DNA of 64,000 bases from Tanypteryx hageni. Lineage: Eukaryota > Arthropoda > Insecta > Odonata > Petaluridae. Each line of letters opens with the position of its first letter. The first letter of the stretch is position 1. The notes beneath the pieces are model-generated. The model saw only the letters and a program-made list of their open reading frames with translations. It was not told where the DNA came from and searched no databases. Positions 4,988 to 61,020 of the stretch are shown in pieces. The DNA is taken from positions 7,857,501-7,921,500 of the forward strand of contig CM054115.1 in the NCBI GenBank assembly GCA_028673005.1, written 5' to 3'. Position numbers and translations under genes: made by a program.

Positions 4988-5257
4988 ACAGATAAAGCAA
5001 GAGAACAGTGGATAAATGAAAAATGAGAGGAGATTGTAGAATGTGAAAGAATTTGTAGAACAGACTTCATGTATAGCAAAGCAAGGGAACTATTCAAGAA
5101 AAAAGCAAGAAAGATAGAACGTAAAGGAATCATGAACAAAAGTGGTAAAATATTATCGGCGCCAGACAATGTAAAGAATGCCTGGAAATAATACATTGAG
5201 GTTCTGTATGACAAAGAAGGAAAGCCAAGAAATATTGAATTAAATGAAGAAGAGGAT

Positions 5258-6781: not shown

Positions 6782-6790
6782 TACATCTAG
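6782..6790. repeat. right target-site duplication of RTE copy 1
   Basis: TACATCTAG follows the ATG-repeat tail and matches 3448-3456 exactly. Satellite sequence (AAGTGAAATAAT) resumes immediately after it. Confidence 0.8.
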
Positions 6791-10760: not shown

Positions 10761-11107
10761 GTAGTATTGTAGATTTTATAATTAACTATCTTTATAGTTA
10801 TTTTCAAAGTTATTGTTGTAGTGAATGTTATAATTTACCGAAGTTATAAATTTTAATCGCAAATATGACACGCAAAAATGCATTTTTTGACATGTAGACC
10901 GTTTTCGTTTACATTTTAATACATCTCAAGGATGAGGTATTTAACTTAGTTATGCGAAGAGAAGAATTTAAATCTCATTCGTTAATCTCCAAAAATTACG
11001 TTTTAATCCGATTTTTCACGCATTTTATTTATACGAGCGAAATTACCCGTTGAACAACAACTGGACTTTGTAGTGTGATTATAACTTCTTAGGTGTGTGT
11101 GTAAAAA

Positions 11108-18699: not shown

Positions 18700-21524
18700 A
18701 CTAATTATTATTCAATTATCTATTGTGGCCACGTATTGTCCTAGGGAAAAATAACACCTTATACCTCTCCGTCCTACTATCTATTTCGCGAATCTTGTCC
18801 TCATTATCCCTCCGTCCAATATATGTTGTTTGTCGAATAATATCCTTCATTTAATTTACGAATATATCCGACCTATATTTATCTAGAAGTTTAAGTCTAG
18901 CCTGTAATCTACGATATTTCAACGATGGCCAACTCAACTCTTCAATGAGTAACGTAACGTTCTGTTTTTTATCGTAATTCTTTTTCACCAATCTAGATGC
19001 CCGCCGCTGTATTTTTTTCTAACTCCTTTATGAGTCCCCTCTGATATGGATCCCAAACCGATGCTGCGTATTCCATTTGAGGTCTAACCAAGGATAAATA
19101 ACAGGATTCTCTCACCTTTTCCGTGCTTTTACTGACTATTCTACGCACAAAAGCCAACTTCTTATTTGCCGCACCTATCACTCATCTTATGTGGGTATCC
19201 CAAGACAGGTCACGTTTCAAGGTAACCCCGAGGTATTTCACGGATTCCGAAACAAGAATGATCTCACCATCTATCGAGTAGGTAAACACGGACGATGGGC
19301 TTCTAGATTTCCAAAAGTTTAGAACGTTACTCTTTTTCTGATTGATTTCTAGCTGCCATTTCTTGCACCAAACAGATAACGCATACAGATCATCCTGAAG
19401 CTGACGATGGTCGCTAGGACCACTAATTTCTCTATAGACTACGGTGTCATGCGCAAAAAGCCTGATATTACTTTTTACAACTGAGCTGATGTCGTTTATA
19501 TAAAGCAAGAAAAGCATTTGTCCGATCACACTACCCTGCGGCACTCCAGATACTACATCTGCCACACACGAGGACTTACCATCGATGACTACTTTTTGTT
19601 TTCTATTCCAAAGGAAAGCGCGAACCCAGTTAATGGCTTTAACATTAACGCCAAGATTTCCCAATTTTAATAACAACTTACGGTGGGGAACCTTGTCAAA
19701 TGCTTTTCTAAAATCAAGGAACACTGCATCGACCTGCTTATTATTTTCGCTGCATGATAAAACATCATTTACAAACAAACCGAGTTGGGTGTCACAGGAT
19801 CTACCTTTTCTGAAGCCATGTTGACAGCTGACTAACAGTGATCTACTCTCGAGATAACGCATTGTGTTGCTAACAATAACGTGCTCCAAAATCTTACATG
19901 ATAATGATGTTAGAGAAATCGGTCTATAATTTTCGGGGTTTTCTTTGTCACCACCCATATGAATGGCTGTGACGTGTGCTAGTCTCCAATCATCAGGAAC
20001 CTCACAGAGGATAAGAGATTTCTCGAATACTATCCGAAGAAAGGGAGCTATTTCTTCTAATAGTTCTTTTAATAAACGCGCGGGAAATTCTTCTGGTCCT
20101 GGGTTTTTGGGTGGCTTTATCGCACTCAGTTGCTTCGCTATTCCTGCCTCAGAGATTTTAATATTATCCATCCGAGTACTTCCATCGGGAATAAGGTTAT
20201 CTTCAAGTCTATCTCCACCTGCCGTGAACGCCTTCGCGAAGTAAACGTTTAGTAGATTAGCTTTATCCTCCCCATTGTGAAGGATGTCTCCGGAATCATA
20301 TCGCAGGAAGGGTATTGAAGGACCCCCTCCCTTGACTTCTCTTGCATAGGACCAGAACGCTTTTGGATCCTCCTTCAATTTTGTATTTAATACCTCATTC
20401 CGGAAGGTGTTAAATGCGTTACGCATGGTCTTTCTCGCTAATTTGCGGGCCCTGTTATACTCATGGACTATAGCTGAGCGATACTCATCGGAAGCGGTGG
20501 TAGGTATGTTTTTCAATTTTGCGTGGCTACGCCTCTGTCGTCTTAAGGCAATCCTGACTTGCTTATTATACCAACGAGGTTATTTCTTATCAGATTTTAA
20601 CTTACTGGGGATAAATCCATTGATACCTTTTCCTAGTATATCCTGAAAAAATAACCATGATGGCTCCATACCTAATCGTTCTGGCTTTTCACGATAACTG
20701 ACAAAGGTACTTCTGAGATGTAAGCTGAAACTTTAAAAGTCGGCCTTGGCGAAAGCGTATACATTCCGAAGGGGCTTATGATATCTTTAGAGCTTTAATT
20801 CGCACTCCGCATACACAGCTCGATGGTAGCTAAGTCTCTCCTCTGTGGACACCTTAGTTATCCTATGCGGGATGTTAGAAGCAAGCAAGTCGAGAACATT
20901 GCACGAACGCGTGGCTTTTCGTACCGTCTGGATTAAGGAATATTCATGAAACGTGTCAATTTAGGCTTCACACGATTCGCGTTCCTTACCTCCCATAACG
21001 AAACATAGGTTTTCCCAATCGATTGACGGTAAGTTAAAATCGCCTCCAATTATCACATAACCGTCGTTCATAATAGATCTAAGCTCGGCTAATTGCCTCT
21101 CTAAACTTAAAATATAATCAACTTTGGCATTAGGTGGTCTGTAAAATGAGCATAAATATATCTTTTTCGAATTATCCTTACTTAGGTGGCACCACACGCT
21201 CTAGGTCGTTTCGTCGATAATAGGGATCTGACAACTATCGTACTTTTCACTTATTGCCAAAAATGCTCCGCCACCTATTCTATTGGCACGGTCTTTCCTG
21301 TACACTCTATAGCTTTTCGGAAAAATTTCTTGGCTAGCGATATCTTCGGTGAGCCAACTTTCCGTACCTATAACTACATCAGCATGCAACGTGCGAATTA
21401 CGTGTTTGAGTTCGGCAGACTTCCTACGAATGCTGCGGCAGTTTAAAAGTATAATATTTAATTTCTCGTTATCGCCCGAAGCATTAACTGCTCTATTACG
21501 GCTTCTGCAGGTGGACTCTCTCAC
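18700..21524 (-). pseudogene. CR1-like LINE ORF2: endonuclease and reverse transcriptase
   Basis: The N-terminal endonuclease shows ILLNCRSIRRKSAELKHV, GTESWL, a YRKDRANRIGGGAF block, FYRPPNAKVDY and GGDFNLPSIDW. RT blocks follow: NYRPISLTSLSCKILEHVI, HGFRKGRSCDTQL, VFLDFRKAFDKVPH (motif A), GVPQGSVIGQMLFLLYINDI (motif B), then SNIRLFAHDTVVY where FADD is expected, so one catalytic Asp is now His. The C-terminal region carries YLGVTLKRDLSWDTHIR, a stop at about 19182, then LSLVRPQMEYAASVWDPYQ. In-frame stops also lie at about 21198, 20958, 20800 and 20580. The reading frame is otherwise mostly continuous, so decay is by point mutation. Confidence 0.88.
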
Positions 21525-28430: not shown

Positions 28431-28556
28431 ATTGTTCCCGGTTACGTTTGATTGCCTATGATTGACTGAGATTATTAATTTGCGTCGCATCAGTCCTCCT
28501 ATTCACGAACCTCCGACGCTGTTTTGAAGTTTATACAATACCTTGGTGACTATGAA
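28431..28556 (+). repeat. dispersed repeat X, left part, including the left TSD (28551-28556)
   Basis: It reads from ATTGTTCCCGG through TTTGCGTCGCATCAGTCCTC to TTGGTGAC. The same repeat occurs uninterrupted at 41994-42155. Its continuation is found only after the right end of the palindrome (38919-38970), so the palindrome inserted into a copy of X. The last six bases, TATGAA, are the left half of a target duplication. Confidence 0.8.
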
Positions 28557-28689
28557 AGTAGAATAGAAAAGACAATTTCAGCGCAGCGATAGTGACGCCG
28601 CCTGTCAGTAGAAACTGTAAGCTAAAGATAAACAAAAGATAAACGTAATGACGTCATAACAAAAGACGATCGTAATGCGCAATGTTAGT

Positions 28690-28881
28690 TTGGTATCATG
28701 GAAGGCGGTAAATTTGAATCGAGTTAAAATTTTGCTGTTGGTATCATGGAAGGCGGTAAATTTTAATCGAGTTACAATTTTGCTGTTGGTATCTTGGATG
28801 GCGGCGGATTCGAATCGAATTAAACTTTCTGGGTTGGTATTTTGGATGGCGGCGGATTTGAATACGTTAAAATGAAGCGAA
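28690..28881. repeat. subterminal 48-bp tandem repeat, four units (left)
   Basis: TTGGTATC/TTGGTATT units start at 28690, 28738, 28786 and 28834, exactly 48 bp apart. Each contains GGCGGYRRATT and GAATCGAGTTAAA-like cores. Mirrored at 38594-38785 and degenerate near 32611-32750. Placement next to the termini suits integrase-binding sites (inference). Frames of 66 and 98 codons across these units are periodicity artefacts. Confidence 0.85.
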
Positions 28882-28938
28882 ATATTGAGCAGGTTGATCA
28901 AGTTTTTTTATTTCCAATAAAAGACAATCATTATTACT

Positions 28939-29237
28939 TTATAAAAACACACAACAAAAATGACAATCTTTTTTCAAAGGAGGTGGTCCATCGATATGAA
29001 TTTCTCCTTTATTGCAGTGTTCCAGGCATGGCTGATATCGTTCCCTCTTATTCCAGTCTTCTATTTCTTGTAATTCGGGAAATATGACGGCTCTCTGATG
29101 GATGTCACGTGGATGATACAGTTCAATATAATCAATAGGTATAAATTTCAGGTCCTCTAATTCTTCCAACCACGTTCATGATAGGCCCGAATGGCCGACC
29201 CAACTTTATGTATAATTGCGAGTTGTTTTAAGTCCAT
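28939..29237 (-). pseudogene. small arm gene A (left copy), frame-broken
   Basis: Starts at MDLKQLAIIHKVGSAIRAYH (ATG at 29237) and stops after GWKN. The rest continues in another frame with DYIELYHPRDIHQ, FPELQEIEDWNKRERYQP and GEIHIDGPPPLKKDC, ending CCVFL. A short deletion relative to the diverged central copy (32815-33117) explains the break. A 78-bp 5' leader intron is likely at 29240-29317 (GGTAAT...TTTCAG). Small, Cys-containing, no signal peptide; function unknown. The exact mirror at 38238-38536 has the same lesion. Confidence 0.6.
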
Positions 29238-29317
29238 AACTGAAAGTTAATTATTTTCAAATCAATGATTGCTTAGATTTATAATATAATAATAATTTTA
29301 AATATAAATTAAATTAC

Positions 29318-29640
29318 CTTTGGAGAGCGATCTTATGCGTGGAGTATTCTGGATGCGTCTTTCTTCGAGAAACTCACTTATGCACGCGTCCGTCCTCTGC
29401 CGAGTCTCAAAACCGAATGAAACCTTCTATGTGCAAGATTGCAAAAATGCTGAGGCTGCACGGCCGCGAGACTCTGCGTAGCGATTTTGAGTCAGCGAAC
29501 CGGACGTGATCACTGCAAAGTGCCGAGTTCGTGTATACACCGGATGTGATCTGGAGAGTGGGGGCTAACGCAAAAGTATCACGTCAACACTTTCCCAACT
29601 TGCGGTATATTTGAATCGAGTTAAAATTTGGTGCTTGGCA
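29318..29640. promoter_or_regulatory. GC-richer divergent intergenic region between arm genes A and B
   Basis: Genes A (minus) and B (plus) diverge from here. The stretch is markedly GC-richer than the arm (GCACGGCCGCGAGACTCTGC, CCGGACGTGATCACTGC) and is the only part also well kept in the central copy (33240-33420). A shared bidirectional promoter is the simplest reading, but no core promoter element was identified with confidence. Confidence 0.4.
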
Positions 29641-29815
29641 GTAATTTAAGAATCTCAACCGTCGTCTCCACCACTTCACTGCTTTCATCGACACCGACGT
29701 CTCCATCGCCTTCTTTATTACACCACCACCGTCTCTACAACTTCGCTGGGTTAATTTCCACCACCGTCTCCACCACCTTCTTCATACTACAAAACCGCCG
29801 TCTCCACCGACTTGA

Positions 29816-30906
29816 AGTAAGTTGTATTCAATTCCATTCATTGATTTTACGCTTCTTGTGAGAAACGATTGAAATATTCTTTTTTAGTATGTCTAGCCCC
29901 AGAAGCCTTCAGAGCTATACCATTGACGTCATAGTTGAAAATGCTATTGATATTAAAGATTTACCAAAAATTATACAAGAAAAAATTACGTCATATAAAA
30001 ATCATAGCGATTTGATATTAACTATTTTGGAAGGGAGATTGATTTGTGAACCAAACTCACCACCATGGGTGAAAAAGTGGATTCATGACCGGAAAATAGC
30101 ACGGGATAAAAAACTCGGGATAAATAAGGTTTTTCAATCGTTTCTCATCATTTGCTTCTAATTAATTTTATTCCTGTTCCCGATGTGTGTATATATTTTT
30201 CATAACACACATTATCTAATTGTATGTTTCATTATCTGATTTATATGTAATAGATTCTTTTTATATGGAATTCTGATTTAAAATCTATATATTTTATTAT
30301 CTGACTTAACTAATGAGAAAAATTACTTCATATGTTTTTAAATTGTTAAAAATTATTTTATTAATTATTATTAAAAATAATACTTATCATCATTTACGTC
30401 TAATTAATTTCATTCCTCTTCTTGATGTCCGTATGCATTTTTTCATAACGCATTCTCTAATTGTTAGTTTCATTATCTGATTTATATGTAATAGATTCAT
30501 TTTTGTATGGAATTTGATTTAAAATCTATATATTTTATTATCTGACTTAACTAATGAGAAAAATTACTTCATATGTTTTTAAATTGTTAAAAATAACCCT
30601 CATTTACAGATGGATTCTCTCAAGGCGAAATTTCAGAAAGTGTCGAAGATGAATACATTCGTAAAAAAGGAGGATTTGGTGCAAGATAAAAACTACGAAA
30701 TAGCATCATTTGAAAAATTGAATACTAGATATGGTTGGACATTAGTAGTGACGATAGGAGAAGATGAAGATTTGTCGGGGGTAAAGATGTTTTTACCCAA
30801 GAAATTTGTAAATGCTATTACAGACGAAGAAATAAAAATGTATAATGAGAGTAATAATAAGAATTTAAGCATAAAAGTAAATAATAGCAATGTTATTATT
30901 TGTTAA
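29816..30906 (+). CDS. small arm gene B (left copy), probably spliced
   Basis: A leader intron is likely at 29816-29887 (GTAAGT to TTTTAG), one base before ATG at 29889. Exon 1 encodes about 80 residues starting MSSPRSLQSYTIDVIVENA, with IIQEKITSYKNHSDL and PPWVKKWIHDRKIARDKK. A second exon at 30610-30906 begins directly after TTTACAG and encodes MDSLKAKFQKVSKMNTFVKK, then FEKLNTRYGWTLVVTIGEDE and GVKMFLPKKFVNAITDEEIK. An intron of 30129-30609 would join them in frame (AAG then ATG), though its donor (GTTTTT) is weak, so two separate genes remain possible. The second part resembles small KYG..VVVT...FLPKRF proteins that I recall from invertebrate Polinton- or virus-like loci; a nucleic-acid-binding fold is a guess. 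AATAAA lies just after the stop. Confidence 0.55.
30147..30596. repeat. direct duplication of about 210 bp inside the gene B intron
   Basis: Segments 30147-30352 and 30388-30596 share long runs such as ATCTGATTTATATGTAATAG and CTTAACTAATGAGAAAAATT. Mirrored in the right arm at about 36879-37328. Confidence 0.8.
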
Positions 30907-32461
30907 AATAAAAAAAATTTCTAAATATTTTGATTGATTCCATTTTTTCCCCCAAAAATTATGTGAAATATTGAGCAGGTTGATCAAGTTTTTTTATTTA
31001 CAATAAAAAATACAAGCATTGTCACGAAAACAAAAATACTTTGTCCTAACTCGTCTTACTTATATGATTTAACAAGTCGTAACTTGTCGAAAGTCGAATG
31101 GAAGGACGAGATGAAATAAAAAAATAGGACGTATCTATTACTAGAATAACTTGCCAGAAAACCTGAAAAATTTTTAACCAAATATTATATGCCAAATAAA
31201 TTTGAATATACCGAAAATTGATAAAATTCAGTAATCTATAAAAATAATTAATTTATCAAATCTCATTTATGATTATTTATATAAATTAGAATAAGAGAAT
31301 CACTCGAACAATTTATCGACGCGTTTTTTGCAGGTCAGAGCGGTTTATTTACCGCGCTCGCACATAGTCAAGATCTTAAAGGCTAAATAAAAAAAAAACA
31401 CATTAAAAAGGTAGAATCTATGGCAGTTCGTAACTCACTCCGCTTCACTGACGAAAAGAGCCTATTAAAAAAAAAAACTGATATTAACATTAACATAATG
31501 ATATCTAAGATGCAGTAGCGACAATTTAACAGATTTATATTGTTTAAATTCCGTTTATAATCGATATTATATCAAAAAATTATAATACGGGTAATAAAAT
31601 ATTCACTTTAACCTGATACGATATAATTCTTTTCTTTTATCCAAATCTTTTAAGCGGACAGTCTTCTATTCTATCCAACGTTGTCGTTGAAATGAAAGAA
31701 TTCCCGTATACAAATTGGATTTAAGAAATTACGTATTAAATCATCGCGAGATTTAAATAGAATGTCTCCACGCATATGTTTCTATTTCTTTTCCGCTGGG
31801 GAACTATGAAGGAAAAGCCTGCACACGCTCTCTGAAATAATGCCACCTTGCTCTTTGAAGACGCTATCTACATCCGGCCGCGCAATCCTCGTAACCAGAT
31901 CGCGACATCATAACATCTCACCGTAGAGAATCTCGCTGTTGTTATATTAAGAAAGTCGAAATTGTACATCTCTTCGTTATTCATTACGCTCGTGGATATC
32001 AACAGCATTCATATGTTAGTAATAAATAATAATAATTAGCTACATCCATATCGAAATTGTGTCACACTGCCTCCGAAAAAATATACACGGGTAAATTATT
32101 ATTTATTTGCCTTTTATTCTTTATTAAAAAAAATAACTAATGGGAAAATTTTGTATTCGATATTAATTTCTTTATATATTTTAATATTATAAAAAAATCA
32201 ATTTTATAAATCCCATCGGGAATTTCATGAACAAAATTAGGGAATAAAGACACGATATATTCTCTTAGACTTATCTTGTAAGATTTAATAGCAAAATTTT
32301 TCGGTCTACGAAAATTTATTTTGAGTTATTTTTTTCGGCTACTTTCACAAAAAAAAATCAATTTTATAAATCCCATCGGGAATTTCACGAATAAAAATTT
32401 AGGGAATAAAGACACGATACATTCTCTTAGACTTATCTTGTAAGATCTAATAGCAAAATCT
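30907..32461. other. inner part of left arm, no gene recognised
   Basis: AT-rich. It contains the 35-bp block GAAATATTGAGCAGGTTGAT... (30965-30999) that also occurs at 28878-28913; one unit of the TCTATTACTAGAATAAC repeat (31131-31250); a GC-richer patch at 31830-31930; and a duplicated segment (about 32200-32345 and 32355-32515) sharing TCCCATCGGGAATTTCA. No open frame of note. Confidence 0.5.
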
Positions 32462-32604
32462 TTCGGTCTACGAAAATTTATTTTGACTTATTTTTTTCGG
32501 CTATTTTCATATTTTTGTGGAAAATTCGTCTAGTAAGAGATATTTTGGAAAATGTTTTCGAATTTCATTTGATAAAAAATTAAGTATAAACTTTGAAAAA
32601 AGTT

Positions 32605-33460
32605 TTTTAGGTTGGTATTTTGGATGGTGGCGGATTCGAATCGAGTTAAAATTTCGCTGTTGACATAGCCGAATGCGCGATATATTGGAATCGAATTAAA
32701 CTTTCTGGGTTGGTATTTTGGATGGCAGCGGATTTGAGTACGTTAAAATGAAGCGAAATATGGAGCAGGTTGATTAAGTTTTTTTGTTTCCGATAAAATA
32801 CAATTATTATTACATTATAAATACACACAACACAAATAACAATCTTTTTTCAAAAGAGGTGGTCCATCGATATGAATTTCTCCTTTATTATAGTGTTCCA
32901 AGTATGGCTGATATCGTTCCCTCTTACACCAATCTTCTAATTCTTGTAATTCGGGAAATGTGGCGGCTATCTGATGGATGTCACGTGAATGATACAATTC
33001 AATTTAATCAAAAGGTACACATTTCAGATCCTCCAAATTCATCCTCTTCCAACCATGTTCATGATAGTTCCGAATAGACCCAACTTGATGTATAATTGCG
33101 AGTTGATTTAAGTCCATAACTGAAAGTTAATTATTTTCAAATCAATGAATGTTTAGATTTATAATTTAATAATAATTTTAAATATAAATTAAATTACCTT
33201 TTGAGAGCGATCTTATGCGTAGAATATCTGGATGCGTCTTTCTTCGAGAAAAAAATCCAAATGAAAACTTCTAGGTGCAAGGTTGCAAAAATGCTGAAGC
33301 TGCACGGCCGCGAGACTCTGCGTAGCGATTTTGAGTCAGCGAACCGGACGTGATCACTGCAAAATGCCTAGTTCGTGCATACACAGGATGTGATCTGGAG
33401 AGTGGGAGTTAACGTGAACAATTTCCCAACTTGCGGTATATTTGAATAGAGTTAAAATCT
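32605..33460. repeat. diverged third copy of the arm's terminal and gene A module
   Basis: Collinear with about 28780-29620: the GGTTGGTATTTTGGATGG repeats, the GGAGCAGGTTGATTAAGT block, gene A, its leader intron, and the GC-rich CGGCCGCGAGACTCTGCG region. It differs from the arms at many positions, unlike the arms from each other, so it is older. Confidence 0.8.
32815..33117 (-). pseudogene. small gene A, central diverged copy with one in-frame stop
   Basis: A 101-codon frame from ATG at 33117 starting MDLNQLAIIHQVGSIRNYHE, continuing through GWKRMNLEDLKCVPFD, one TAA, then IELYHSRDIHQIAATFPELQ and ending LCCVYL. The stop replaces a position that reads Tyr in the arm copies. The spacing around GWK is longer than in the arms, showing that the arms carry a small deletion. 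The pair together indicates an ancestral protein of about 100 residues. Function unknown. Confidence 0.65.
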
Positions 33461-33546
33461 CCGAACGAATTTTGACAAGAAATACGTTATTTAAAACAAT
33501 AGTTTGGAGTCCGATTAAATTTTAAAATCCATTTATAACGATCCCT

Positions 33547-34019
33547 CTAACCCGGCAGGATTTTTAACAACCGATAAATTGTATAAAGCACTGGGTAAAA
33601 ATAAGTTATCGAAGAGATACGTTCAGGATTGGTTGAATTCACAGGATGCTTATACATTGCACAGGCCTTTAAGAAAACGCTTCCAAAGAAATTTTTACGA
33701 TGTTGATTATATCGACGAAACTTGGCAATGTGACTTAAATGATATGCGAAATTTGAAAAAGTATAATAGTGAATTTGCATATATTCTAACCATTATAGAT
33801 TTATTCTCAAAATATGCTTGGGCAGTTCCTTTGAAGAGCAAGACGGGGGAAGAAATATTATTATATTTTCAAAAATAGAAAACCTTTAAAATTACAAAGC
33901 GATAAGAGCTCCGAATTTAGGAATAAAAAGTTTCAAGATTTCCTCGAGAGAAAAAACGTCAACTTTTATTATAATCATAACCCCGATGTCAAAGCTGCCG
34001 TAGCAAAAAGATTCCGAAA
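33547..34019 (+). pseudogene. Polinton/Maverick-type integrase (rve core), decayed
   Basis: DDE integrases join element ends to target DNA. The frame carries SKRYVQDWLNSQDAYTLHRP, then WQCDLNDMR (first catalytic Asp) and ILTIIDLFSKYAWAVPLKSK, the pattern of Maverick and retroviral-like integrases. It stops at about 33876. A one-base shift continues the domain with SDKSSEFRNKKFQDFLERKN (second Asp) and HNPDVKAAVAKRF, where the usual catalytic Glu of AAVxER is Lys. The N-terminal zinc-binding part and C-terminal chromodomain-like part are missing, and repeats follow directly. Not functional; transposition would need an integrase in trans. Confidence 0.85.
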
Positions 34020-35010
34020 ATTAATAAAATTCAGTAATCTATAAAATAATTAATTTAAAAAATCTCACTTACGATTATTTATATAATCAGAGAAATATTG
34101 CATAAAAAACGTCTTTTTTGTCAAAATTCGTTTGGAAAAACATTTTTTAGATCATATATTACGAAGAAAATTTCTAAAAAAAGCCGATGCTTAATTTTTT
34201 CAAAATATCTATTACTAGAATAACTTTCCACAGACGCGAAATATTTTTTAACCAAAAAAAATATTTGCCAAATATATTTGAGTATACCGAAAATTAATAA
34301 AATTCAGTAATATATAAAATAATTAATTTATCAAATCTCGCTTATTATTATTTATAAAATCAGAGAAATATTGCTTAAAAAACGAATTTTTTGTCAAAAT
34401 TCGTATGGGGAAACATTTTTTAGATCATGTATTACGAAGAAATTTTCTAAAAAAAGCCAATGCTTAATTTTTTCAAAATATCTATTACTAGAATAACTTT
34501 CCACAAACACTAAATATTTTTTAACAAAAAACATTTTTCTATTACTAGAATAACTTTCCACAAGCGCTAAATATTTTTTAACCAAAAAAAATATTTGCCA
34601 AATAAATTTGAGTATACCGAAAATTAATAAAATTCAGTAATCTATAAAATAATTAATTTTAAAAATCCCACTTATGATTATTTATATAAATTAAAATAAA
34701 AGAATCACTCAAACAATTTATCGACGCGTTTTTCAAAATAATCAAAAATATTCAATATATCTATTACTAGATTAACTTTCCACAAACCATGAATATCTTT
34801 TAACCAAAAAACCATTTGCCAAATAAATTTGAGTATGCCTAAAATTAATAAAATTCAGTGATATATAAAATAATTAATTTATCAAATCTCACTTACGATT
34901 ATTGATATAATCAGAGAAATATTGCTTAAAAAACGTATTTTTTGTCAAAATTCGTTTGGGAAAACATTTTGTCGATCATGAATTACGAAGAAATTTTCTA
35001 AAAAAGTCGA
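34010..35010. repeat. tandem AT-rich repeats, roughly 230-330-bp units
   Basis: TTAATAAAATTCAGTAATCT recurs near 34019, 34292, 34621 and 34853. TCTATTACTAGAATAACTTT recurs near 34200, 34482, 34538 and 34758. A GTCAAAATTCGT segment alternates with them. One unit also sits inside each arm (near 31131 and 36240). The block truncates the integrase. Confidence 0.8.
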
Positions 35011-36568
35011 TGCTAGATTGTGCTATTAGATCTTACAAGATAAGTCTTAGAGAATGTATCGTGTCTTTATTCCCTAAATTTTTATTTGTGAAATTCCCGA
35101 TGGGATTTATAAAATTGATTTTTTTTGTGAAAGTAGCCGAAAAAAATAACTCAAAATAAATTTTCGTAGACCGAAAAATTTTGCTATTAAATCTTACAAG
35201 ATAAGTCTAAGAGAATATATCGTGTCTTTATTCCCTAATTTTGTTCATGAAATTCCCGATGGGATTTATAAAATTGATTTTTTTATAATATTAAAATATA
35301 TAAAGAAATTAATATCGAATACAAAATTTTCCCATTAGTTATTTTTTTTTAATAAAGAATAAAAGGCAAATAAATAATAATTTACCCGTGTATATTTTTT
35401 CGGAGGCAGTGTGACACAATTTCGATATGGATGTAGCTAATTATTATTATTTATTACTAACATATGAATGCTGTTGATATCCACGAGCGTAATGAATAAC
35501 GAAGAGATGTACAATTTCGACTTTCTTAATATAACAACAGCGAGATTCTCTACGGTGAGATGTTATGATGTCGCGATCTGGTTACGAGGATTGCGCGGCC
35601 GGATGTAGATAGCGTCTTCAAAGAGCAAGGTGGCATTATTTCAGAGAGCGTGTGCAGGCTTTTCCTTCATAGTTCCCCAGCGGAAAAGAAATAGAAACAT
35701 ATGCGTGGAGACATTCTATTTAAATCTCGCGATGATTTAATACGTAATTTCTTAAATCCAATTTGTATACGGGAATTCTTTCATTTCAACGACAACGTTG
35801 GATAGAATAGAAGACTGTCCGCTTAAAAGATTTGGATAAAAGAAAAGAATTATATCGTATCAGGTTAAAGTGAATATTTTATTACCCGTATTATAATTTT
35901 TTGATATAATATCGATTATAAACGGAATTTAAACAATATAAATCTGTTAAATTGTCGCTACTGCATCTTAGATATCATTATGTTAATGTTAATATCAGTT
36001 TTTTTTTTTAATAGGCTCTTTTCGTCAGTGAAGCGGAGTGAGTTACGAACTGCCATAGATTCTACCTTTTTAATGTGTTTTTTTTTATTTAGCCTTTAAG
36101 ATCTTGACTATGTGCGAGCGCGGTAAATAAACCGCTCTGACCTGCAAAAAACGCGTCGATAAATTGTTCGAGTGATTCTCTTATTCTAATTTATATAAAT
36201 AATCATAAATGAGATTTGATAAATTAATTATTTTTATAGATTACTGAATTTTATCAATTTTCGGTATATTCAAATTTATTTGGCATATAATATTTGGTTA
36301 AAAATTTTTCAGGTTTTCTGGCAAGTTATTCTAGTAATAGATACGTCCTATTTTTTTATTTCATCTCGTCCTTCCATTCGACTTTCGACAAGTTACGACT
36401 TGTTAAATCATATAAGTAAGACGAGTTAGGACAAAGTATTTTTGTTTTCGTGACAATGCTTGTATTTTTTATTGTAAATAAAAAAACTTGATCAACCTGC
36501 TCAATATTTCACATAATTTTTGGGGGAAAAAATGGAATCAATCAAAATATTTAGAAATTTTTTTTATT

Positions 36569-37659
36569 TTAACAAATAATAACATTGCTATTATTTACTT
36601 TTATGCTTAAATTCTTATTATTACTCTCATTATACATTTTTATTTCTTCGTCTGTAATAGCATTTACAAATTTCTTGGGTAAAAACATCTTTACCCCCGA
36701 CAAATCTTCATCTTCTCCTATCGTCACTACTAATGTCCAACCATATCTAGTATTCAATTTTTCAAATGATGCTATTTCGTAGTTTTTATCTTGCACCAAA
36801 TCCTCCTTTTTTACGAATGTATTCATCTTCGACACTTTCTGAAATTTCGCCTTGAGAGAATCCATCTGTAAATGAGGGTTATTTTTAACAATTTAAAAAC
36901 ATATGAAGTAATTTTTCTCATTAGTTAAGTCAGATAATAAAATATATAGATTTTAAATCAAATTCCATACAAAAATGAATCTATTACATATAAATCAGAT
37001 AATGAAACTAACAATTAGAGAATGCGTTATGAAAAAATGCATACGGACATCAAGAAGAGGAATGAAATTAATTAGACGTAAATGATGATAAGTATTATTT
37101 TTAATAATAATTAATAAAATAATTTTTAACAATTTAAAAACATATGAAGTAATTTTTCTCATTAGTTAAGTCAGATAATAAAATATATAGATTTTAAATC
37201 AGAATTCCATATAAAAAGAATCTATTACATATAAATCAGATAATGAAACATACAATTAGATAATGTGTGTTATGAAAAATATATACACACATCGGGAACA
37301 GGAATAAAATTAATTAGAAGCAAATGATGAGAAACGATTGAAAAACCTTATTTATCCCGAGTTTTTTATCCCGTGCTATTTTCCGGTCATGAATCCACTT
37401 TTTCACCCATGGTGGTGAGTTTGGTTCACAAATCAATCTCCCTTCCAAAATAGTTAATATCAAATCGCTATGATTTTTATATGACGTAATTTTTTCTTGT
37501 ATAATTTTTGGTAAATCTTTAATATCAATAGCATTTTCAACTATGACGTCAATGGTATAGCTCTGAAGGCTTCTGGGGCTAGACATACTAAAAAAGAATA
37601 TTTCAATCGTTTCTCACAAGAAGCGTAAAATCAATGAATGGAATTGAATACAACTTACT
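36569..37659 (-). CDS. small arm gene B (right copy)
   Basis: Exact mirror of 29816-30906: second exon 36569-36865, probable intron 36866-37346, first coding exon 37347-37586, leader intron 37588-37659. No coding difference from the left copy was seen. The same caveats on splicing apply. Two identical copies in inverted orientation mean convergent transcripts from the arms could pair into long double-stranded RNA. Confidence 0.55.
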
Positions 37660-38157
37660 TCAAGTCGGTGGAGACGGCGGTTTTGTAGTATGAAGAAGGT
37701 GGTGGAGACGGTGGTGGAAATTAACCCAGCGAAGTTGTAGAGACGGTGGTGGTGTAATAAAGAAGGCGATGGAGACGTCGGTGTCGATGAAAGCAGTGAA
37801 GTGGTGGAGACGACGGTTGAGATTCTTAAATTACTGCCAAGCACCAAATTTTAACTCGATTCAAATATACCGCAAGTTGGGAAAGTGTTGACGTGATACT
37901 TTTGCGTTAGCCCCCACTCTCCAGATCACATCCGGTGTATACACGAACTCGGCACTTTGCAGTGATCACGTCCGGTTCGCTGACTCAAAATCGCTACGCA
38001 GAGTCTCGCGGCCGTGCAGCCTCAGCATTTTTGCAATCTTGCACATAGAAGGTTTCATTCGGTTTTGAGACTCGGCAGAGGACGGACGCGTGCATAAGTG
38101 AGTTTCTCGAAGAAAGACGCATCCAGAATACTCCACGCATAAGATCGCTCTCCAAAG

Positions 38158-38536
38158 GTAATTTAATTTATATTTAAAATTATTATTATATTATAAATCT
38201 AAGCAATCATTGATTTGAAAATAATTAACTTTCAGTTATGGACTTAAAACAACTCGCAATTATACATAAAGTTGGGTCGGCCATTCGGGCCTATCATGAA
38301 CGTGGTTGGAAGAATTAGAGGACCTGAAATTTATACCTATTGATTATATTGAACTGTATCATCCACGTGACATCCATCAGAGAGCCGTCATATTTCCCGA
38401 ATTACAAGAAATAGAAGACTGGAATAAGAGGGAACGATATCAGCCATGCCTGGAACACTGCAATAAAGGAGAAATTCATATCGATGGACCACCTCCTTTG
38501 AAAAAAGATTGTCATTTTTGTTGTGTGTTTTTATAA
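38158..38536 (+). pseudogene. small arm gene A (right copy), frame-broken
   Basis: Mirror of the left gene A, with leader intron 38158-38235 (AAAG/GTAATT to TTTCAG) and ATG at 38238. The frame stops after GWKN and resumes in another frame as on the left. AATAAA lies at about 38563. Sharing the same lesion with the left arm shows that the arms were copied, one from the other, after the break. Confidence 0.6.
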
Positions 38537-38593
38537 AGTAATAATGATTGTCTTTTATTGGAAATAAAAAAACTTGATCAACCTGCTCAATAT

Positions 38594-38785
38594 TTCGCTT
38601 CATTTTAACGTATTCAAATCCGCCGCCATCCAAAATACCAACCCAGAAAGTTTAATTCGATTCGAATCCGCCGCCATCCAAGATACCAACAGCAAAATTG
38701 TAACTCGATTAAAATTTACCGCCTTCCATGATACCAACAGCAAAATTTTAACTCGATTCAAATTTACCGCCTTCCATGATACCAA
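38594..38785. repeat. subterminal 48-bp tandem repeat, four units (right)
   Basis: Mirror of 28690-28881 with the same 48-bp spacing. Confidence 0.85.
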
Positions 38786-38918
38786 ACTAACATTGCGCAT
38801 TACGATCGTCTTTTGTTATGACGTCATTACGTTTATCTTTTGTTTATCTTTAGCTTACAGTTTCTACTGACAGGCGGCGTCACTATCGCTGCGCTGAAAC
38901 TGTCTTTTCTATTATACT

Positions 38919-38970
38919 TATGATTTATACGACGGTAAAAATAGTTACACATTCCATTTTTCGTTGATTT
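38919..38970 (+). repeat. right TSD (38919-38924) and remainder of dispersed repeat X
   Basis: TATGAT, then TTATACGACGGTAAAAATAG and ACATTCCATTTTT, correspond to ACAATACGAAGGTAAAAATA and ATATTCCATTAAT in the uninterrupted X copy at 42112-42155. Confidence 0.75.
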
Positions 38971-38976
38971 TGTGTT

Positions 38977-41900
38977 AAGGGGGACCCTACTGAGTTTTAG
39001 GGCCCAAAATGGTCAAAATATCGATTTCCTGTTTTTTACCTTAAACTATATCAGGAACCTTGTTCCATCCTGGGATAGTGTTTATTTATGTCAGCGGCCA
39101 TTTTAAAGGTCAAAAATTGGCCATTTAAAAGTATATGCGCAGTCTTTTAAATCTGACACTCCCCATTTATATATTCCATAATGGAATGCTGCTTTACTTT
39201 ATACTTTTTCGTTCAAATTTTTTATTTTTTTCATACGATGCCTATAAGGATTTGTGTGCCATCTATTGACTAATGGGTGTACTTGGTACTCATGGCTACA
39301 AGGAATGTCAAGTGAGAAAAATACATTCATAAAGTCTGTAATTTTATTTTTTCGTTTGCGTCTTACTTACTGTAACATTTTTAGTGTATTATTTGTTAGC
39401 CTTGAATCTTTTTTTGCTATTTAAACGTATTCTAAAAAAATTTGAAATCACTCATGTGACGTAATATCCTGGTAACGTTGTTTACAGTTTTATGCCGTAC
39501 TTGTGAAAAAGTCCCCTTACATAATTTTTGAATTACATACATAATTTTTTGGTGAGTTCATAGTATTCAGTATGGATATTATTCGCAGTTGGTGGAATAA
39601 ACCAAAAGGTCGAAAGAAAGAGAAAAGTGAATGTGCCCGTGCAGATGTACAGAAACGATGGGGAAATGATCCCAATCTCGACGGTAACACTAAGGAAGAT
39701 AACATCCCTATTGTGACTGAATATGATCCACAGCCAGGTCCATCTTGTGAATCTCCTAATGAAACATCAACTCCTATACGAAAACTAAGCTACTTTGACG
39801 GCATTTCAAGTTATTCTAGTAAAGTTGGTGTTGATGACTTCATTCTTGTCCATCGCAATACTTTCCAGGAATTGTTTAAAAATCAGAAGTGCTCTGAGTG
39901 TGATTGTAAATCATTGTGTGTGCAAACTAGGGAAAGGAAAGGGTTTTGTAGCAAACTAATTATGAAATGCGATAACTGTGGTTATTTACATTCATCCAAT
40001 TACACAAGTCCATGCACAAATGCCAAGAGTCAAGACCAACTTTTGAAGTGAATAGAGCAATGGTTGATGGGTTTGCTAGTGTGGGCTTAGGTCATGCAGC
40101 TATAAATAAAGTTTGTGTTGCTGTGGGAATGAGAGGCATGGCAAGGAACACCTATGAAAACCATTTTAAAAATTTAATAGATGATAATAGATGATGTAAA
40201 GTTTTTGAGGAAAGAATTTTGGAGTAAGACATGAGAAGGGGTCCACAGGAAACACCAAGCTCTAGACCCTTCTCTCAAGTAATAGACATTGCTGTGTCAT
40301 ATGATGGTACTTGGCATAAAAGAGGACATACCTCACTTTATGGTGTTGGGGTAGTTATAGATATTTTGACAGGGTTAGTTGTAGATTATGAGGTTTTATG
40401 AAAATATTGTCATATGTGTAGCATTACATCAATAGAACTGGGTTCAGATACACCAGAGTTTGCAGTGTGGCAGGAAGGACATCAAAGTAGTGGTGATTGT
40501 AGCAGAAATTTTGATGGAACCTCAGGTGCGATGGAGGTTGTAGCAGCAGACCATATTTGGAAACAATCTGTCACTGACTGTAGGCTGCAATACACTACTA
40601 TGTTGTGTGATGGTGACTCAAAGACATATCTGCACATCAACGAAGAAAAGGTGTATGGAGACTGCAGAATTGAGAAGGAAGAATGTGTGAATCACATTTC
40701 ACAGAGAATGGACACAGGACTGAGGAATTTAGTGAATGAATGGCAAGCAAAAGGAGTGCGGCTTGGAGGTCGCAGAGTTGGAGCACTGAAAGAAAGTACC
40801 GTTATTTCACTCACATTCTACTACAGAACTGCCATCACTTCAAATATTCCAGATGTCACCAAAATGAAAAATGATATCTATGCTACCCTCAGCCATTGCA
40901 TGTCGATAGATGACAGCCCACAGAATTTTTGATGCCCATATTGGCCAGAGCCCTGGTGCTTTTATAAATGTGCAGTGGCTACATGCGAAAAGCCTCAGTC
41001 ACGTGACAAAATGCACATAAAATTGACAACTGATGTAGTGAAAAAGATTATGCCTTTGTATCAAAGATTGGCAAATGAAGAAATTCTGAAAAGGTGTGCT
41101 AGAGAAAAGACTCAGAATCCCAATGAGAGTTTGCATTCTCTTATTTGGCAGAAATGCTCAAAAGAAACATTTGTTTCGAAACAAAGAGTGGATATTGCAG
41201 TATAAAATGCAGTTGGAGAGTTTAATATGGGAGCACTTTCATGCCAAAAAATAAAAATGGACCTTTTTGGGGTAGTACTTACTGCCAATGCTCATAAAAT
41301 CGGTGTGGATTGCGACACAAGGCGAAAACGGAAGAGTGAACTGAAAAGCATGGAATCAAGGAGAAATCCTCAACGTAAGAAAAAAATGATGAAGACTGCA
41401 GTGGAAGAGATAAATATACAGAGGGAAGGGGAAATGTATAAAGCAGGGGCATTCTGAGTTGAAGAAATATTTTTATAGCACTGTATGTACAAAAAATGCT
41501 TTTATCTAAAAACTAACATTTTTAGCAAATAAAATGCTCCCTGCGCATCAGTTTTGGTTTGATTTGCTTACAAATTTTACTATAAGTTCATTTCTATGTT
41601 TTACGCCAATTCTAGTATTAATTTTAAGATAAAATGAAAACTTTTGAGTGTCAGTGCTTAACAACCTGTAAAAAAATGTAAATAATAAAAAACAAAAATC
41701 TCAAAATTTTAAATTTTAAAAAATATACCAAATAAGCTCAAATAAACTGTTCTTACTACGGTTTATATATATGAATATTGTGTATTCTGTAGAAGTTTGA
41801 AAGTGATAGCTCAAAATTTGGCGAGGCAGAAACTTTTTAAATAAATGCACTTTTTTCCTTAAAATTAATCAATTATCAAAAACTATATAACCAAATTAAG

Positions 41901-43470: not shown

Positions 43471-43476
43471 TGTGAT

Positions 43477-44360
43477 ATGTGCTCGGTTGTTCGTAGTAAA
43501 ATTAGGCTTTTCGCCGATGACACCGTTCTATATAAAGAAATAAAAAATCAGGAGGAACATCAGTCTCTGTGTGAAGACTTAAGAGCCATTTCAGCGTGGT
43601 GCAAAGAATGGCAAATCGAAATTAATTATACTAAATGTGCCGCAGTCACGTTCTGGAAAAGTAAGAACAAAGATTTAGGTTTCGAATATAAAATAGATGA
43701 AATGAGTATTCGACAAGCTGAGTATGTAAAATATTTAGGAGTAACCATTTGTCGAGATCTTTCGTGGGACATGCACATTCGTCGAGTTATAGGCGCGGCC
43801 AACAAGAAACTGGCATTCATAGGTAGAATAGTACGGAACACTACAGAGAAAGTACGCGAAACATGCTACTTATCACTGGTAAGACCACAAGTAGAATACG
43901 CAGCGAGCATATGGGATCCGTACGAGAAGGGACACATAATTCAACTAGAAAGAGTACAGCGCAGAGCAGCCAGATTTGTAAAACAAAAGTACGAACATAA
44001 GGAAAGCGTCACCTCTTTATTGAGCGATTTGAACTGGGTATCACTGGAGGACCGTAGATTGCACTCAAGGTTGAAACTTCTAGAGAAATATAGGTCAGAA
44101 TGTCTAAAAGAGGAGGTAGTGGGAATAATTGTGGCACCGACGTATATAGGTAGAAATGATCGAGACGATAAAATACGTGAGATCGATTGTAGGACGGAGC
44201 GTTATCTAGGCTCGTTCTTTCCGAGGACAGTAAGAGATCACAATAGGAAATTTCGAATTGCGTTAGACAATCTTTAGGTAGGATTTGGTGCATTGCACCC
44301 CCTGCCACCCACCAACTTGGTGAATTGCAGGGTAACTTGTAGATGTAGATGTAGATGTAT
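43477..44360 (+). pseudogene. CR1-like LINE 3' end with intact RT C-terminal frame
   Basis: A 5'-truncated copy starting inside the RT. The 266-codon frame runs KIRLFADDTVLYKEI (catalytic FADD kept), WCKEWQIEINYTKC, YLGVTICRDLSWDMHIRRVI, LSLVRPQVEYAASIWDPYEK, VQRRAARFVKQKYEHKES, and DCRTERYLGSFFPRTVRDHN, ending in TAG at 44275. The 3' end follows: GCACCCCCTGCCACCCACC, then a (GTAGAT)n tail at about 44338-44360. The open frame and catalytic residues make it the youngest-looking CR1 copy here. Confidence 0.85.
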
Positions 44361-46955: not shown

Positions 46956-47915
46956 TAACCCCTCTCCCTCCGCTCTCTCCCTTCGCTCTCTCCCTTTGCT
47001 CCATCCCTCCCACCTCACTTTTCGCTCTCTTACTTCGCTCTATCCATCCCACCTCTCCCTTTTCAATATCCCTCTCCCTTCGATTTCTCCCTAGCCCCTT
47101 TCCCATCGCTCTATCCCTCCCATCTCTCCCTTCGCTCGCTCCCTTCGCTCACTCACTTCGCTCTCTCCCTTCGCTCTCTCCCTCAATCTCCTCCTCCCCC
47201 TCTCCCTTCGCTCTCTCCCTTTTCTCTATCCCTCCCACCTCTCCATTTGCGCGCTCCATTCACTCGCTCCCTTCGCGCTCTCCCTTCGCTCTCTCCCTTC
47301 GGTCTCCCCCTTCGCTCTTTCCTTTCGCTCACTCCCTTCGCTCTCTCCCTTCGCTCTCTCCCTCGCACTCCTCCTCCCCCTCTCCCTTCGCTCTCACCCT
47401 TCGCTCCCTCCTCTCTCCCCTCTATCCCTCCCACCTCTCCCTTTTTACTATCCCTTTCCCTTCGATATATCCCTAACCCCTCTCCCTTCGCTCTATCCCT
47501 CCAATCTCTCACTTTGCTCTCTCCCTTCGCTCTCTCCCTTCGCACTCTCCATTCGCTCTCTCCATTCCCTCTCTCCCTTTGCTCTCTCCCTCCTCCCTCT
47601 ACCTTCGCTCTCTCCCTCCCCTCTCTCCCTTCCCTCTCTTCTTTCCCCCTCTCCCTTCCCTCTCTCCCTCGCGCTCCTCCTCCGCCTCTCCCTTCGCTCT
47701 CTTCCTCCGCTCTCTCCCTCGCTCTCCTCCTCCACCCTCTCCCTTCGCTCTCTTCCTCGCTCTCCTCCTCCCCTCTCTCCCTTCGCTCTCTCCCTTTGCT
47801 CTATCCCTACCATCTCACCCTTCGCTCCCTCCTTTCTCTCTATCCCTCCCACCTCTCCCTTTCCACTATCCCTCTCCCTTTGATATTTCCCTAACCCCTT
47901 TCCCTTCGCTATATT
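46956..47915. repeat. CT-rich satellite with higher-order units, second block
   Basis: Basic unit CTCTCCCTTCGCT (12-13 bp). A longer marker containing ACTATCCCTCTCCCTTCGAT and ATTTCCCTAACCCC recurs near 47062, 47445 and 47865. Overlapping Ser/Leu/Pro-rich and Arg/Glu/Gly-rich frames on the two strands are artefacts. Confidence 0.9.
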
Positions 47916-49170: not shown

Positions 49171-51690
49171 CATCTCTCCCTTAGCGCTCTCGCATCGCTC
49201 TCTTACTTCGCACTCTCCATTCGCTCTCTCCCTTTGCTCTCTCCCTTCGCTCTCTCCCTAAGCTCTCTCCATTCGCTCTCTCCATTCGCTCTCTCGATTC
49301 GATCTCTCCCTTCACTCTCTCTTCCCCTTCACCCTTCGCTATCCCCCTCCGCTCTCTTCCTTGCTCTCCTCCACCCCCCTCTCCCATCGCTCTCTCTCTC
49401 GCTCTCCTACTCCGCACTCTCCCTTCGCTCTCTCCATTTGCTCTATCCCTCCCACGTCACCCTTCGCTCTCTCCTTTCGCTGTATACCCCATCTCTCCAT
49501 TTGCGCTCTCCCTTCGCTCTCTCCCTTCGCTCGCTCCCTTCGCTCTCTCCCTAAGCTCTCTCCCTTCCCTCTCTCCCTTCCCACTCTCCCTTCACTCTCT
49601 CTCTACGCTCTCTCCATTCGCTCTCTCTCTTTGCTCTCTACCTTCACTCTCTCTTCCCTCTCTTCCTTCGCTCTCCTTTCCCTCTCTCCCTTTACTCTCT
49701 CCCTCCTGTCTCTCCCTTTGCTCTCTCCCTTCCCCCTTCTTCTCCCTTCGCTCTCTCCCTCCCGCTCTCCCTTCGCTCTCTCCCTCCGCTCTCTTCCTCG
49801 CTCTCCTCCTCTCCCCTCTACAATCACTCTCTCCCTCGCACTCCTACTCCCACCTCACCCTCCCATCTCTCCATTTGCTCTCTCCCTTCGCTCTGACTCT
49901 TCGCACTCTCCATTCTCTCTCTCCCTTCGCTCTCTCCCTTCCATCTCTCCTTTCGCTCTATCCCTCCCATCTCTCCATTCTCTCTCTCCCTCCTCCCTCT
50001 CCCTCCGCACTCTCCCTCCCCTTTCTCTCTTTGCTCTCTACTTTCCCCATCTCCCTTCGTTCTCTCCCTCGCTCTCCTCCTCCCCCCTCTCCCTTCGCTC
50101 TCTCTTTTTGCTCTATCTCTCCCACCTCACCCATCGCTTTGTCCCTCTTACCTCTCCCTTTTCACTATCCCTCTCCCTTCGATATTTCCCTAACCCCTCT
50201 CTTTTCGCTCTATCCCTCCCATCTCCCCATTTGCTCTCTCCCTTCCCTATCTCCTTTTGCTCTCTCACTCCTCCTCCTTCTCTCCCTCCTACCTCTCCCT
50301 TCGCTCTCTCCCTCCCCCTCTCCCTTCGTTCTCTTCCTCGCTCTCCTCCTCCCCTCTCTCCATTCTCACTCTCCCTTCCCTCTCTCCATCGCTCTCCTCC
50401 TCCCCTCCCTCACTTCGCTCTCTTCCTCGCTCTCCTGTTCCCCCCTCTCCCTTCGCTCTATTCCTCCTACCTCTCCCTTTTCACTATCCCTCTCCCTTCC
50501 ATATTTCCCTATCTCCCTTTGCTCGCTTCTTCCACCTCCTTCTCTCCCTCCTCCCTCTCCCTTCTCTCTCTCCCTCCCCCCTCTACCTTCGCTCTCTCCC
50601 TTGCTCTCCTCCTCCCCATCTTCTTTTCCTCCCCCTCTTTTTTCGCTCACTCCCTTCGCTCTATTCCTCCCATCTCTCCCTTTTCACTATCCCTTCCCTC
50701 TCTCCCTTTGCTCTCTTCCTCCTCCTTCTCTCCCTCCTCCCTCCCCCTTCCCTCTCTCACTCCCCCTCTACCTTCGCTCTCTCCCTCGCTCTTCTCCTCC
50801 CCCCTCTCTTTTCTCTCTCTCCCTTCCCTCTCTCCGTTCCCTCTCTCTCTTGCTCTCCTCCTCCCCCCTCTCCTTTCCCTTTCCCTCTCTCCCTCGCTCT
50901 CCTCCTCCACCCTCTCCCTTCGATCTCTCCCACGCTCTCCTCACCCCCCTCTCCCTTCGCTCTCTCCCTCCCCTTCTCCTTTCGCTCACTCCCTTCGCTC
51001 TATTCCTCCCATCTCTAACTTTTCACTATCCCTCTCCCTTCTATATTTCCCTAACCCCTCATCCTTCGCTCTATCCCTCCCATCCCTCCCTTTGCTCTCT
51101 CCCTTCTCTCTCTCCCTTTGCTCTATTCCACCCATCCCTCCCTTTGCTCTCTCCCTTCGCTCTATCCCTCCCATCCCTCCCTCTTCTCTCTCTTCCCTCT
51201 CTCCCTTTGCTCTCTCCCTCCGTCTCCTTCTCTCCCTCCTCCTTCTCCCTTCGCTCTCTCCCTCCCCCCTCTCCCTTCGCTTTCTCCCTCGCTCTCCTCC
51301 TCCCCCTCTTCCTTCGCTCTCTCCCTTCCCTCTCTCCCTCGCTCTTCTCTTCCTCCCTCTCTCTTCGCTCTCTCTATTTGCTCTATCCCTCTTACCTCAC
51401 CCTTTGCTCTCTCACCTTTCACTATCCCTCTTCCTTCGATATTTCCCTAACCCCTCTCCCTTCATTGTATCCCTCCCATCTCTCCCTTTGCTCTCTCCCT
51501 TCGGTCTCTCCCTATGCTCTCTCTCTCTAAGCTCTCTCCCTAAGCTCTCTCCATTCGCTCTCTCCCTTAGCTCTCTCCCTTAGCTCTCTCCCTTAGCTCT
51601 CCTTCCTTCTCCCTGTTTGCTCTCTCTCTTTGCTCTCTCTATCCTCCTTCTCTCCCTCCTGCATCTCTCCCTCCTCCCTCTCCCTTAGAG
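49171..51690. repeat. CT-rich satellite with higher-order units, third block
   Basis: Continues the array. The higher-order marker recurs near 50160, 50480, 50685, 51018 and 51410, at irregular spacing. A plus-strand frame of 740 codons and one of 551 codons traverse the array. Their products are almost only Ser, Leu, Pro, Phe, Ala and Arg, and complementary Glu/Arg/Gly frames exist opposite. No gene is supported. Confidence 0.92.
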
Positions 51691-60935: not shown

Positions 60936-61020
60936 GGTGGAAGAGAAAGATAAGAGGAAAAGACGACAGGAATGAAACGTAAAGATATAGACAAAAAAAG
61001 GAGAAAAAAGGACGGTATAT

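Follow-up and report, generated by a model that had tools for sequence, protein, structure and literature searches.

A near-palindromic Polinton-like element in Tanypteryx hageni with an apparent truncated terminal repeat in its centre

The genome assembly of Tanypteryx hageni (GCA_028673005.1) contains, on contig CM054115.1, a near-palindromic element of about 10.4 kb that is the subject of this analysis. The element occupies positions 28557-38918 of the 64-kb stretch that was analysed (referred to here as the window, whose numbering is used for all coordinates), and it is composed of two inverted arms of 3.9 kb that flank a centre of 2.55 kb. A BLASTN self-comparison of the window returned a single long near-identical inverted repeat (28556-32461 versus 38919-35015), with an inter-arm identity of 99.795% over 3907 columns, 5 mismatches and 3 gaps. 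Once the arms are trimmed to the termini AGTA...TACT, eight differences remain in a global alignment, namely five substitutions and three one-base differences in the length of A-runs, the latter located at 31389, 32126 and 32349. The arms and their immediate flanks are as follows.

28557..32461, plus strand: left palindrome arm, 3905 bp, 99.8% identical to the reversed right arm
35015..38918, minus strand: right palindrome arm, 3904 bp, delimited by BLASTN and global alignment
28576..32388, plus strand: left-arm interior without substitutions relative to the right arm, 3813 bp, containing the three A-run differences
28551..28556, no strand: left 6-bp flank TATGAA, putative target-site duplication, 5/6 match with 38919-38924
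38919..38924, no strand: right 6-bp flank TATGAT, putative target-site duplication, 5/6 match to the left flank

An initial annotation of this DNA had described a giant near-perfect palindrome, and the arm alignment (3905 and 3904 bp, 99.795% identical) demonstrates that it is real in the given sequence. A chance palindrome can be ruled out because the inverted repeat is 3.9 kb long and 99.8% identical. The annotation had also proposed that mirrored coordinates sum to 67475, which is exact from 28576 to 31397 and again at about 32126-32349 but does not hold elsewhere, as mismatches lie at 28561 and 28575 and the A-runs shift the register. Here, the first A-run difference breaks the mirror register, the second (at about 32126) restores it, and the third (at 32349) breaks it again.

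Polintons, also termed Mavericks, are self-synthesising DNA transposons and relatives of the adintoviruses, and the ends of the element point in their direction. The terminal motif AGTANAATAGAAAAGACANTTTC is present at both ends (28557 on the plus strand and 38918 on the minus strand) with 0 mismatches, so that the annotated AGTA...TACT termini are borne out, and it has no further occurrence in the 64 kb at up to 3 mismatches and none in 100 shuffles. Termini of the form AG...CT are of the Polinton/Maverick type, yet the full six-base (AGT)2 or (AG)3 motifs of vertebrate elements are not exactly matched. The flanks TATGAA and TATGAT agree at five of six positions, which upholds the annotated 6-bp flanks as an imperfect match. 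Among the lengths from 3 to 10 bp, six is the only one with a near-complete flank match (0-1 matching positions at 3, 4, 5, 7 and 8 bp, 4/9 at 9 bp and 3/10 at 10 bp), and random pairs reach at least 5/6 in about 0.6% of cases. An 18-bp pattern taken from the terminus matched 9 viral and 61 genome stretches; these matches were regarded as chance because BLASTN of the window against the 70 loci gave only one 23-bp match.

The centre was annotated as a unique 2.55-kb region. Its length of 2553 bp agrees with this, but the sequence is not unique, as it includes a copy of terminal inverted repeat (TIR) sequence at 32611-33458 and AT-rich repeats that are shared with the arms. The segment 32611-33458 is 84% identical to left-arm positions 28737-29627 over 900 columns, in the same direction, and a weaker similarity to the subterminal repeats of the TIR starts already at 32604. 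When the repeated margin is excluded, 67 of 790 aligned sites are substituted between the arm and centre copies, and there are 12 indels. The left-arm copy continues beyond the inner limit of the right arm, across the remainder of a tandem unit and an AT-rich part, up to the truncated TIR; within this junction, 32462-32509 is 95.8% identical to 32300-32347, and 32514-32576 is 76% identical to the inverted segment 34786-34729. The repeats involved, together with those inside the arms, are listed below.

32604..33458, plus strand: truncated and diverged TIR copy in the centre, 84% identity over 900 columns, without the outer ~130-180 bp
28557..29627, plus strand: putative ancestral TIR within the left arm, about 1.07 kb; similarity to the centre copy ends at 29627
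37848..38918, minus strand: putative ancestral TIR within the right arm, mirror of 28557-29627
32462..32603, plus strand: junction of left arm and truncated TIR, made up of the last portion of a 162-bp unit and a partial AT-rich repeat
34008..35014, no strand: AT-rich centre repeats, related to arm positions 31132-31328
28690..28863, no strand: 48-bp subterminal tandem repeat in the TIR, 3.6 copies, with its mirror at 38612-38785
30145..30594, no strand: 241-bp tandem repeat between the two small arm open reading frames (ORFs), from tandem-repeat analysis
32191..32509, no strand: 162-bp tandem repeat spanning the inner end of the left arm, from tandem-repeat analysis

Parts of the 48-bp subterminal repeat are found again at 29602-29629 as well as in the centre. 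Multiple protein-binding sites have been suggested for the TIRs of the transposon Galileo in passages of PMC3573991, and by analogy the 48-bp repeats may possibly be candidates for such sites.

An integrase ORF starts about 60 bp past the point where the TIR similarity ends (29627/33458) and reads away from the TIR copy. It is broken into two pieces.

33519..33878, plus strand: rve-type integrase, piece 1, 119 aa, recognised by homologues; profile matches below cut-off
33835..34044, plus strand: rve-type integrase, piece 2, in another frame and ending early; Pfam rve positions 62-96, E 0.0016, below cut-off

For piece 1, 11 of 13 candidates from a large protein collection were homologous at E<=1e-3, the best of them at 2.2e-27 with 59% identity. 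The profile matches to Pfam rve (E 2e-4) and to the NCBIfam IS481 transposase (E 3.6e-6) are both below the cut-off, and there is a PHROG transposase match at E 1e-5. Judged from its homologues, the integrase is clearly of the rve type. Searches of viral contigs brought up 10 and 25 stretches for the two pieces and 147 for an integrase alignment, none of which was confirmed as a relative. Of the Maverick-type integrase remnant in the initial annotation, what stands is an rve-type integrase in two frames, supported by homologues and by profile matches below cut-off. The Maverick label is putative; we assume it from the ends, the 6-bp flanks and the integrase motif rather than from a named match.

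The arms themselves contain two small ORFs and the TIR contains the remnant of a third.

29889..30161, plus strand: ORF1, left arm; no Pfam family above cut-off, structure model unusable (predicted local distance difference test score, pLDDT, 45)
37314..37586, minus strand: ORF1, right-arm copy, from the ORF list
30610..30906, plus strand: beta-rich ORF, 98 aa, left arm; weak, non-significant resemblance to single-stranded DNA-binding proteins
36569..36865, minus strand: beta-rich ORF, right-arm copy, from the ORF list
28939..29175, minus strand: ORF remnant in the TIR, pointing to the end of the element; frame broken in the arm
32815..33003, minus strand: TIR ORF remnant, centre copy, interrupted by a stop and aligned to the arm copy

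The reading frames of ORF1 and of the beta-rich ORF are open in both arms. The structure model of the beta-rich ORF is weakly, and non-significantly, like single-stranded DNA-binding folds; 0/7 candidates from the protein collection were homologous at E<=1e-3, and 7 pattern matches in viral contigs yielded no confirmed relative. The small spliced genes that had been annotated in the arms are present as ORFs (29889-30161 and 30610-30906), and a splice linking ORF1 to the beta-rich ORF appears plausible by eye. The TIR ORF is broken differently in arm and centre, and over 63 codons (stop codon excluded) the nonsynonymous divergence (dN) is 0.091 and the synonymous divergence (dS) 0.125; the protein collection held no homologues of it. 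Protein scans covered all ORFs no shorter than 60 aa in the left arm and centre, 25 in number, of which the right arm carries 13 mirror copies. Within this set PolB had no match (25/25 ORFs), and neither did a capsid, a packaging ATPase, a cysteine protease or a P-type transposase. As polymerase, capsid, ATPase and protease all went unmatched among these ORFs, we classify the element as Polinton-like and probably derived from a Polinton, and not as a Polinton itself.

When the element is read from 32604 to 38918, the order is truncated TIR, inward-reading integrase, AT-rich repeats, 162-bp units, beta-rich ORF, ORF1 and complete TIR. As the TIR copy of the centre is adjoined by an inward-reading integrase, 32604-38918 alone reads like a small Polinton-type element in its layout. 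Since this TIR copy and the integrase stand before the right half, the left arm is, to judge by the arrangement, an inverted duplicate of the right half with its ORFs, attached to the truncated TIR. The presence of a diverged, truncated TIR beside the integrase further suggests an ancestor with an ordinary TIR of about 1.07 kb, and duplication of one entire half.

The distribution of differences between the arms provides a relative chronology. Of the five substitutions, two fall within 19 bp of the outer end and three within 73 bp of the inner end, and the 3813-bp interior has none. The outer 19 bp together with the 6-bp flank differ at 3/25 positions versus 0/3813 for the interior (Fisher p 2e-7), the outer 19 bp without the flank at 2/19 (p 2e-5), and the inner edge at 3/73 (p 6e-6). 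The cut-points for the Fisher tests were picked post hoc, with the data already seen; the size of the gap is independent of them, and a gap this large was seen in none of 200,000 sets of five positions drawn uniformly. On its inner side the left arm breaks off within a tandem unit, and with the neighbouring unit as outgroup the changed letter is in the right arm for all three inner differences. Together with the 67/790 substitutions between the arm and the centre TIR, this confinement to the edges gives the centre and the outermost ends an old appearance and the intervening arms a new one, and the arms look younger than the insertion. The simplest account is an old insertion in which the arms were made, or made alike, later in the chromosome.

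What has to be accounted for, then, is the anatomy, the pattern of old ends, new arms and old centre, and the truncated inner TIR. The reading that we prefer, tentatively and at close to an even chance, is that a decayed non-autonomous Polinton-type insertion lost one end and that repair used about 4 kb of the opposite end as its template. For this we infer an ancestor, a break, a direction of copying and a chromosomal setting after insertion. The ancestor would have been of the Polinton/Maverick type, with TIRs of about 1.07 kb, the integrase by one TIR and the two small ORFs by the other, all reading inward, and it would have inserted long ago to generate the 6-bp duplication. The TIR on the integrase side would later have been broken or truncated. 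The stump of the broken end could then have annealed to the other TIR and copied about 4 kb inward, comprising the TIR, ORF1, the beta-rich ORF and the AT-rich spacer. Joining of the new strand to the truncated TIR would have left one half as an inverted duplicate, with the TIR stump and the integrase fossil in the centre, and arm-to-arm gene conversion may since have kept the arms alike. Panhandle repair alone was rejected by argument, because it would be expected to yield a restored TIR and no truncated TIR in the interior. The non-autonomous Polinton-type derivative with an enlarged inverted repeat that the initial annotation envisaged is still the best reading of the 6-bp flanks, the AG...CT ends and the inward integrase, but the TIR copy in the centre had been missed.

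Several points weigh against this reading. The pattern comes from a single copy, and the flanks within the 64-kb window contain no second one (BLASTN and TBLASTX at 1e-3; TBLASTN of five ORF pieces at 1e-2). The age pattern hangs on 6 differing positions, one of which lies in a possibly coincidental 6-bp flank, and averaging of the arms by an assembler or polisher would give the same pattern of differences. The ends begin with AGTA but carry neither of the full six-base vertebrate motifs, the Polinton class of the integrase is putative, and polymerase, capsid, protease and ATPase are unmatched in the ORFs scanned.

The concern about averaging leads to the explanation that we deem the least probable, in which reads of the two arms were mixed when the arms were collapsed or polished, leaving only those differences that lie less than a read length from unique sequence, or the palindrome is itself a chimera of assembly; the inter-arm identity would then be partly false. 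All 5 substitutions lie at most 19 bp from the outer or 73 bp from the inner ends of the arms, as read-anchored polishing would leave them. The three A-run differences deep in the arms argue, although not conclusively, that a single sequence has not simply been pasted twice; the plausible element termini, the 6-bp flank match and the long asymmetric centre are moreover unlike a plain fold-back chimera, and such a sequencing chimera is ruled out by the asymmetric 2.55-kb centre and the element-like termini. A palindrome that already existed before integration is unlikely, though it ranks above an artefact: here two broken linear replicons would have been joined, or a protein-primed copy-back product formed, so that both termini derived from the same intact end, with integration in trans and later conversion. 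Such joining would fit the near-identical outer termini, the single flanking 6-bp match that encloses the whole unit, and the truncated TIR, which is expected where the broken end was joined; passages of PMC6431247 also state that Polintons encode a protein-primed polymerase for their replication, whereas the present copy has no polymerase match in the left-arm and centre ORFs. Without conversion, moreover, joining leaves the 3 differences in the outer 25 bp versus 0/3813 unexplained.

It is also rather improbable that the palindrome represents a family layout, with many copies in the host that share the same long arms and centre and are mobilised in trans by an autonomous Polinton. The small ORFs are still open in the arms, which speaks for it, and passages of PMC3573991 report that Galileo copies with extended TIRs are numerous, including 22 E-subfamily copies of which none has transposase sequence. 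The 64-kb window holds no second copy, however, and four protein-based scans of viral contigs retrieved no relative (neither being the host genome), while the aged outer ends argue against a recent jump. Should host copies share the junctions, they would constitute a mobile Polinton family that is mostly inverted repeat, of a kind not met in the literature examined.

If the preferred account of end loss and repair holds, the locus might, more doubtfully, be regarded as a fossil of long-range end regeneration, in which 4 kb was copied and 3.8-kb arms were kept alike by conversion while the termini and the centre aged. The locus bears on how linear TIR-bearing virus-like elements maintain or rebuild their ends. 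It retains an apparent old truncated end beside the integrase, and for this reason divergence by itself allows a possible order of events to be drawn up.

The remainder of the window contains other repetitive sequences. A LINE-type element with several ORFs at 3701-6771 has an endonuclease (Pfam Exo_endo_phos, E 1.4e-9) and a reverse transcriptase (RVT_1, E 9e-20), and further reverse transcriptase ORFs (RVT_1) at 19182-20579, 43471-44277 and 56506-57696 make the window rich in retroelements and give it the look of animal DNA. At 58320-61187 on the minus strand there are long overlapping ORFs that, by eye, look similar to a Penelope-like reverse transcriptase; a Pfam match at E<=0.01 was obtained for 0/2 ORFs tested. 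The LINE-like reverse transcriptase stretch is flanked by another group of repeats, both inverted and direct, which comprises imperfect self-palindromes at 39-2261 (75%) and 6788-7750 (76%), with related copies at 1-2551 and 8599-10771. These are unrelated to the element (BLASTN and TBLASTX at 1e-3) and may possibly be a fold-back repeat family. Pieces of a Mutator-like transposase lie to the right of the element at 40402-40932 (PF20700, E 3.4e-23) and 39545-40051 (E 0.0025, below cut-off). Long pyrimidine-rich arrays that repeat in tandem every 13 bp are located at 46962-47847, 49173-51686 and 61707-63999, with units of about CTCTCCCTTCGCT and TCCCTCCTCCACA, and within them several reading frames run uninterrupted over hundreds of codons.

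The element resembles Polintons and Mavericks in its 6-bp flank, its ends starting with AGT, the ancestral TIR of about 1.07 kb, the rve-type integrase located by a TIR, and the inward orientation of the integrase and the two arm ORFs. It differs from them in its size of 10.4 kb, in its broken integrase, and in that no polymerase, capsid, ATPase or protease ORF was found. Passages of PMC8097293 describe intact vertebrate Mavericks as 12.7-24.6 kb long, with 6-bp duplications, ends of the (AGT)2 or (AG)3 type, TIR lengths of 46-1447 bp and mostly inward-reading gene modules; the 3.9-kb inverted repeat of the element is outside this TIR range. The inferred ancestral TIR of about 1.07 kb fits the Polinton range, which runs from tens of bp up to about 1.4 kb and which the present 3.9-kb repeat exceeds. 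No palindromic Polinton was named in the titles or abstract openings returned by a literature search.

Other elements with related DDE/rve transposases are IS3EU/GingerRoot, Ginger1/2 and IS481EU, of which IS3EU and GingerRoot share the 6-bp duplication, according to passages of PMC10045372. The same source gives TA..TA, occasionally TG..CA, as the ends of IS3EU/GingerRoot, duplications of 4-5 bp for Ginger and duplications of about 4, 15 or 25 bp for IS481EU. IS3EU/GingerRoot can be ruled out by the AG..CT termini of the element, Ginger1/Ginger2 by flank matches of 1/4 at 4 bp and 1/5 at 5 bp, and IS481EU by termini or duplication length.

The statement in the initial annotation that no described family has this layout was too strong, in view of TIR growth in Galileo (passages of PMC3573991) and regenerated TIRs in mavirus-like elements (passages of PMC8547959). 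As described in the former, Galileo TIRs grow by taking in internal sequence in inverted orientation, and for Galileo of Drosophila mojavensis Marzo et al. suggested that one TIR was broken and copied from the other, with a tract exceeding the TIR; these passages also say that segmental duplications, and likewise Polinton inverted repeats, had been reported to expand. The '2RT' copies of Galileo/Foldback are similar in that their TIRs are extended by inverted duplication of internal sequence, and the suggested route fits the element, whose left arm equals the right half beyond the TIR while a truncated TIR remains in the centre. Tandem repeats within some TIRs and longest-TIR copies without transposase are further likenesses in PMC3573991, as far as its passages go, whereas Galileo differs in having a P-superfamily transposase, 7-bp duplications (the 7-bp flanks of the element match at 0/7 positions) and a longest TIR of about 1.26 kb. 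For three truncated mavirus-like elements (EMALEs), passages of PMC8547959 state that the TIRs "must have regenerated"; unlike the element, EMALEs have virophage genes, a protist host and TIRs of 0.2-2.3 kb, and these passages mention no old inner TIR or intermediate, whereas an apparent stump survives here. That the inverted repeat of a Polinton-type element can apparently swallow most of the element suggests that TIR length is unsafe as a classifier in annotation. By analogy with these systems, the mechanism proposed here would be close to the TIR-extension events already described, as an extreme case of a repair that has been proposed for other transposons.

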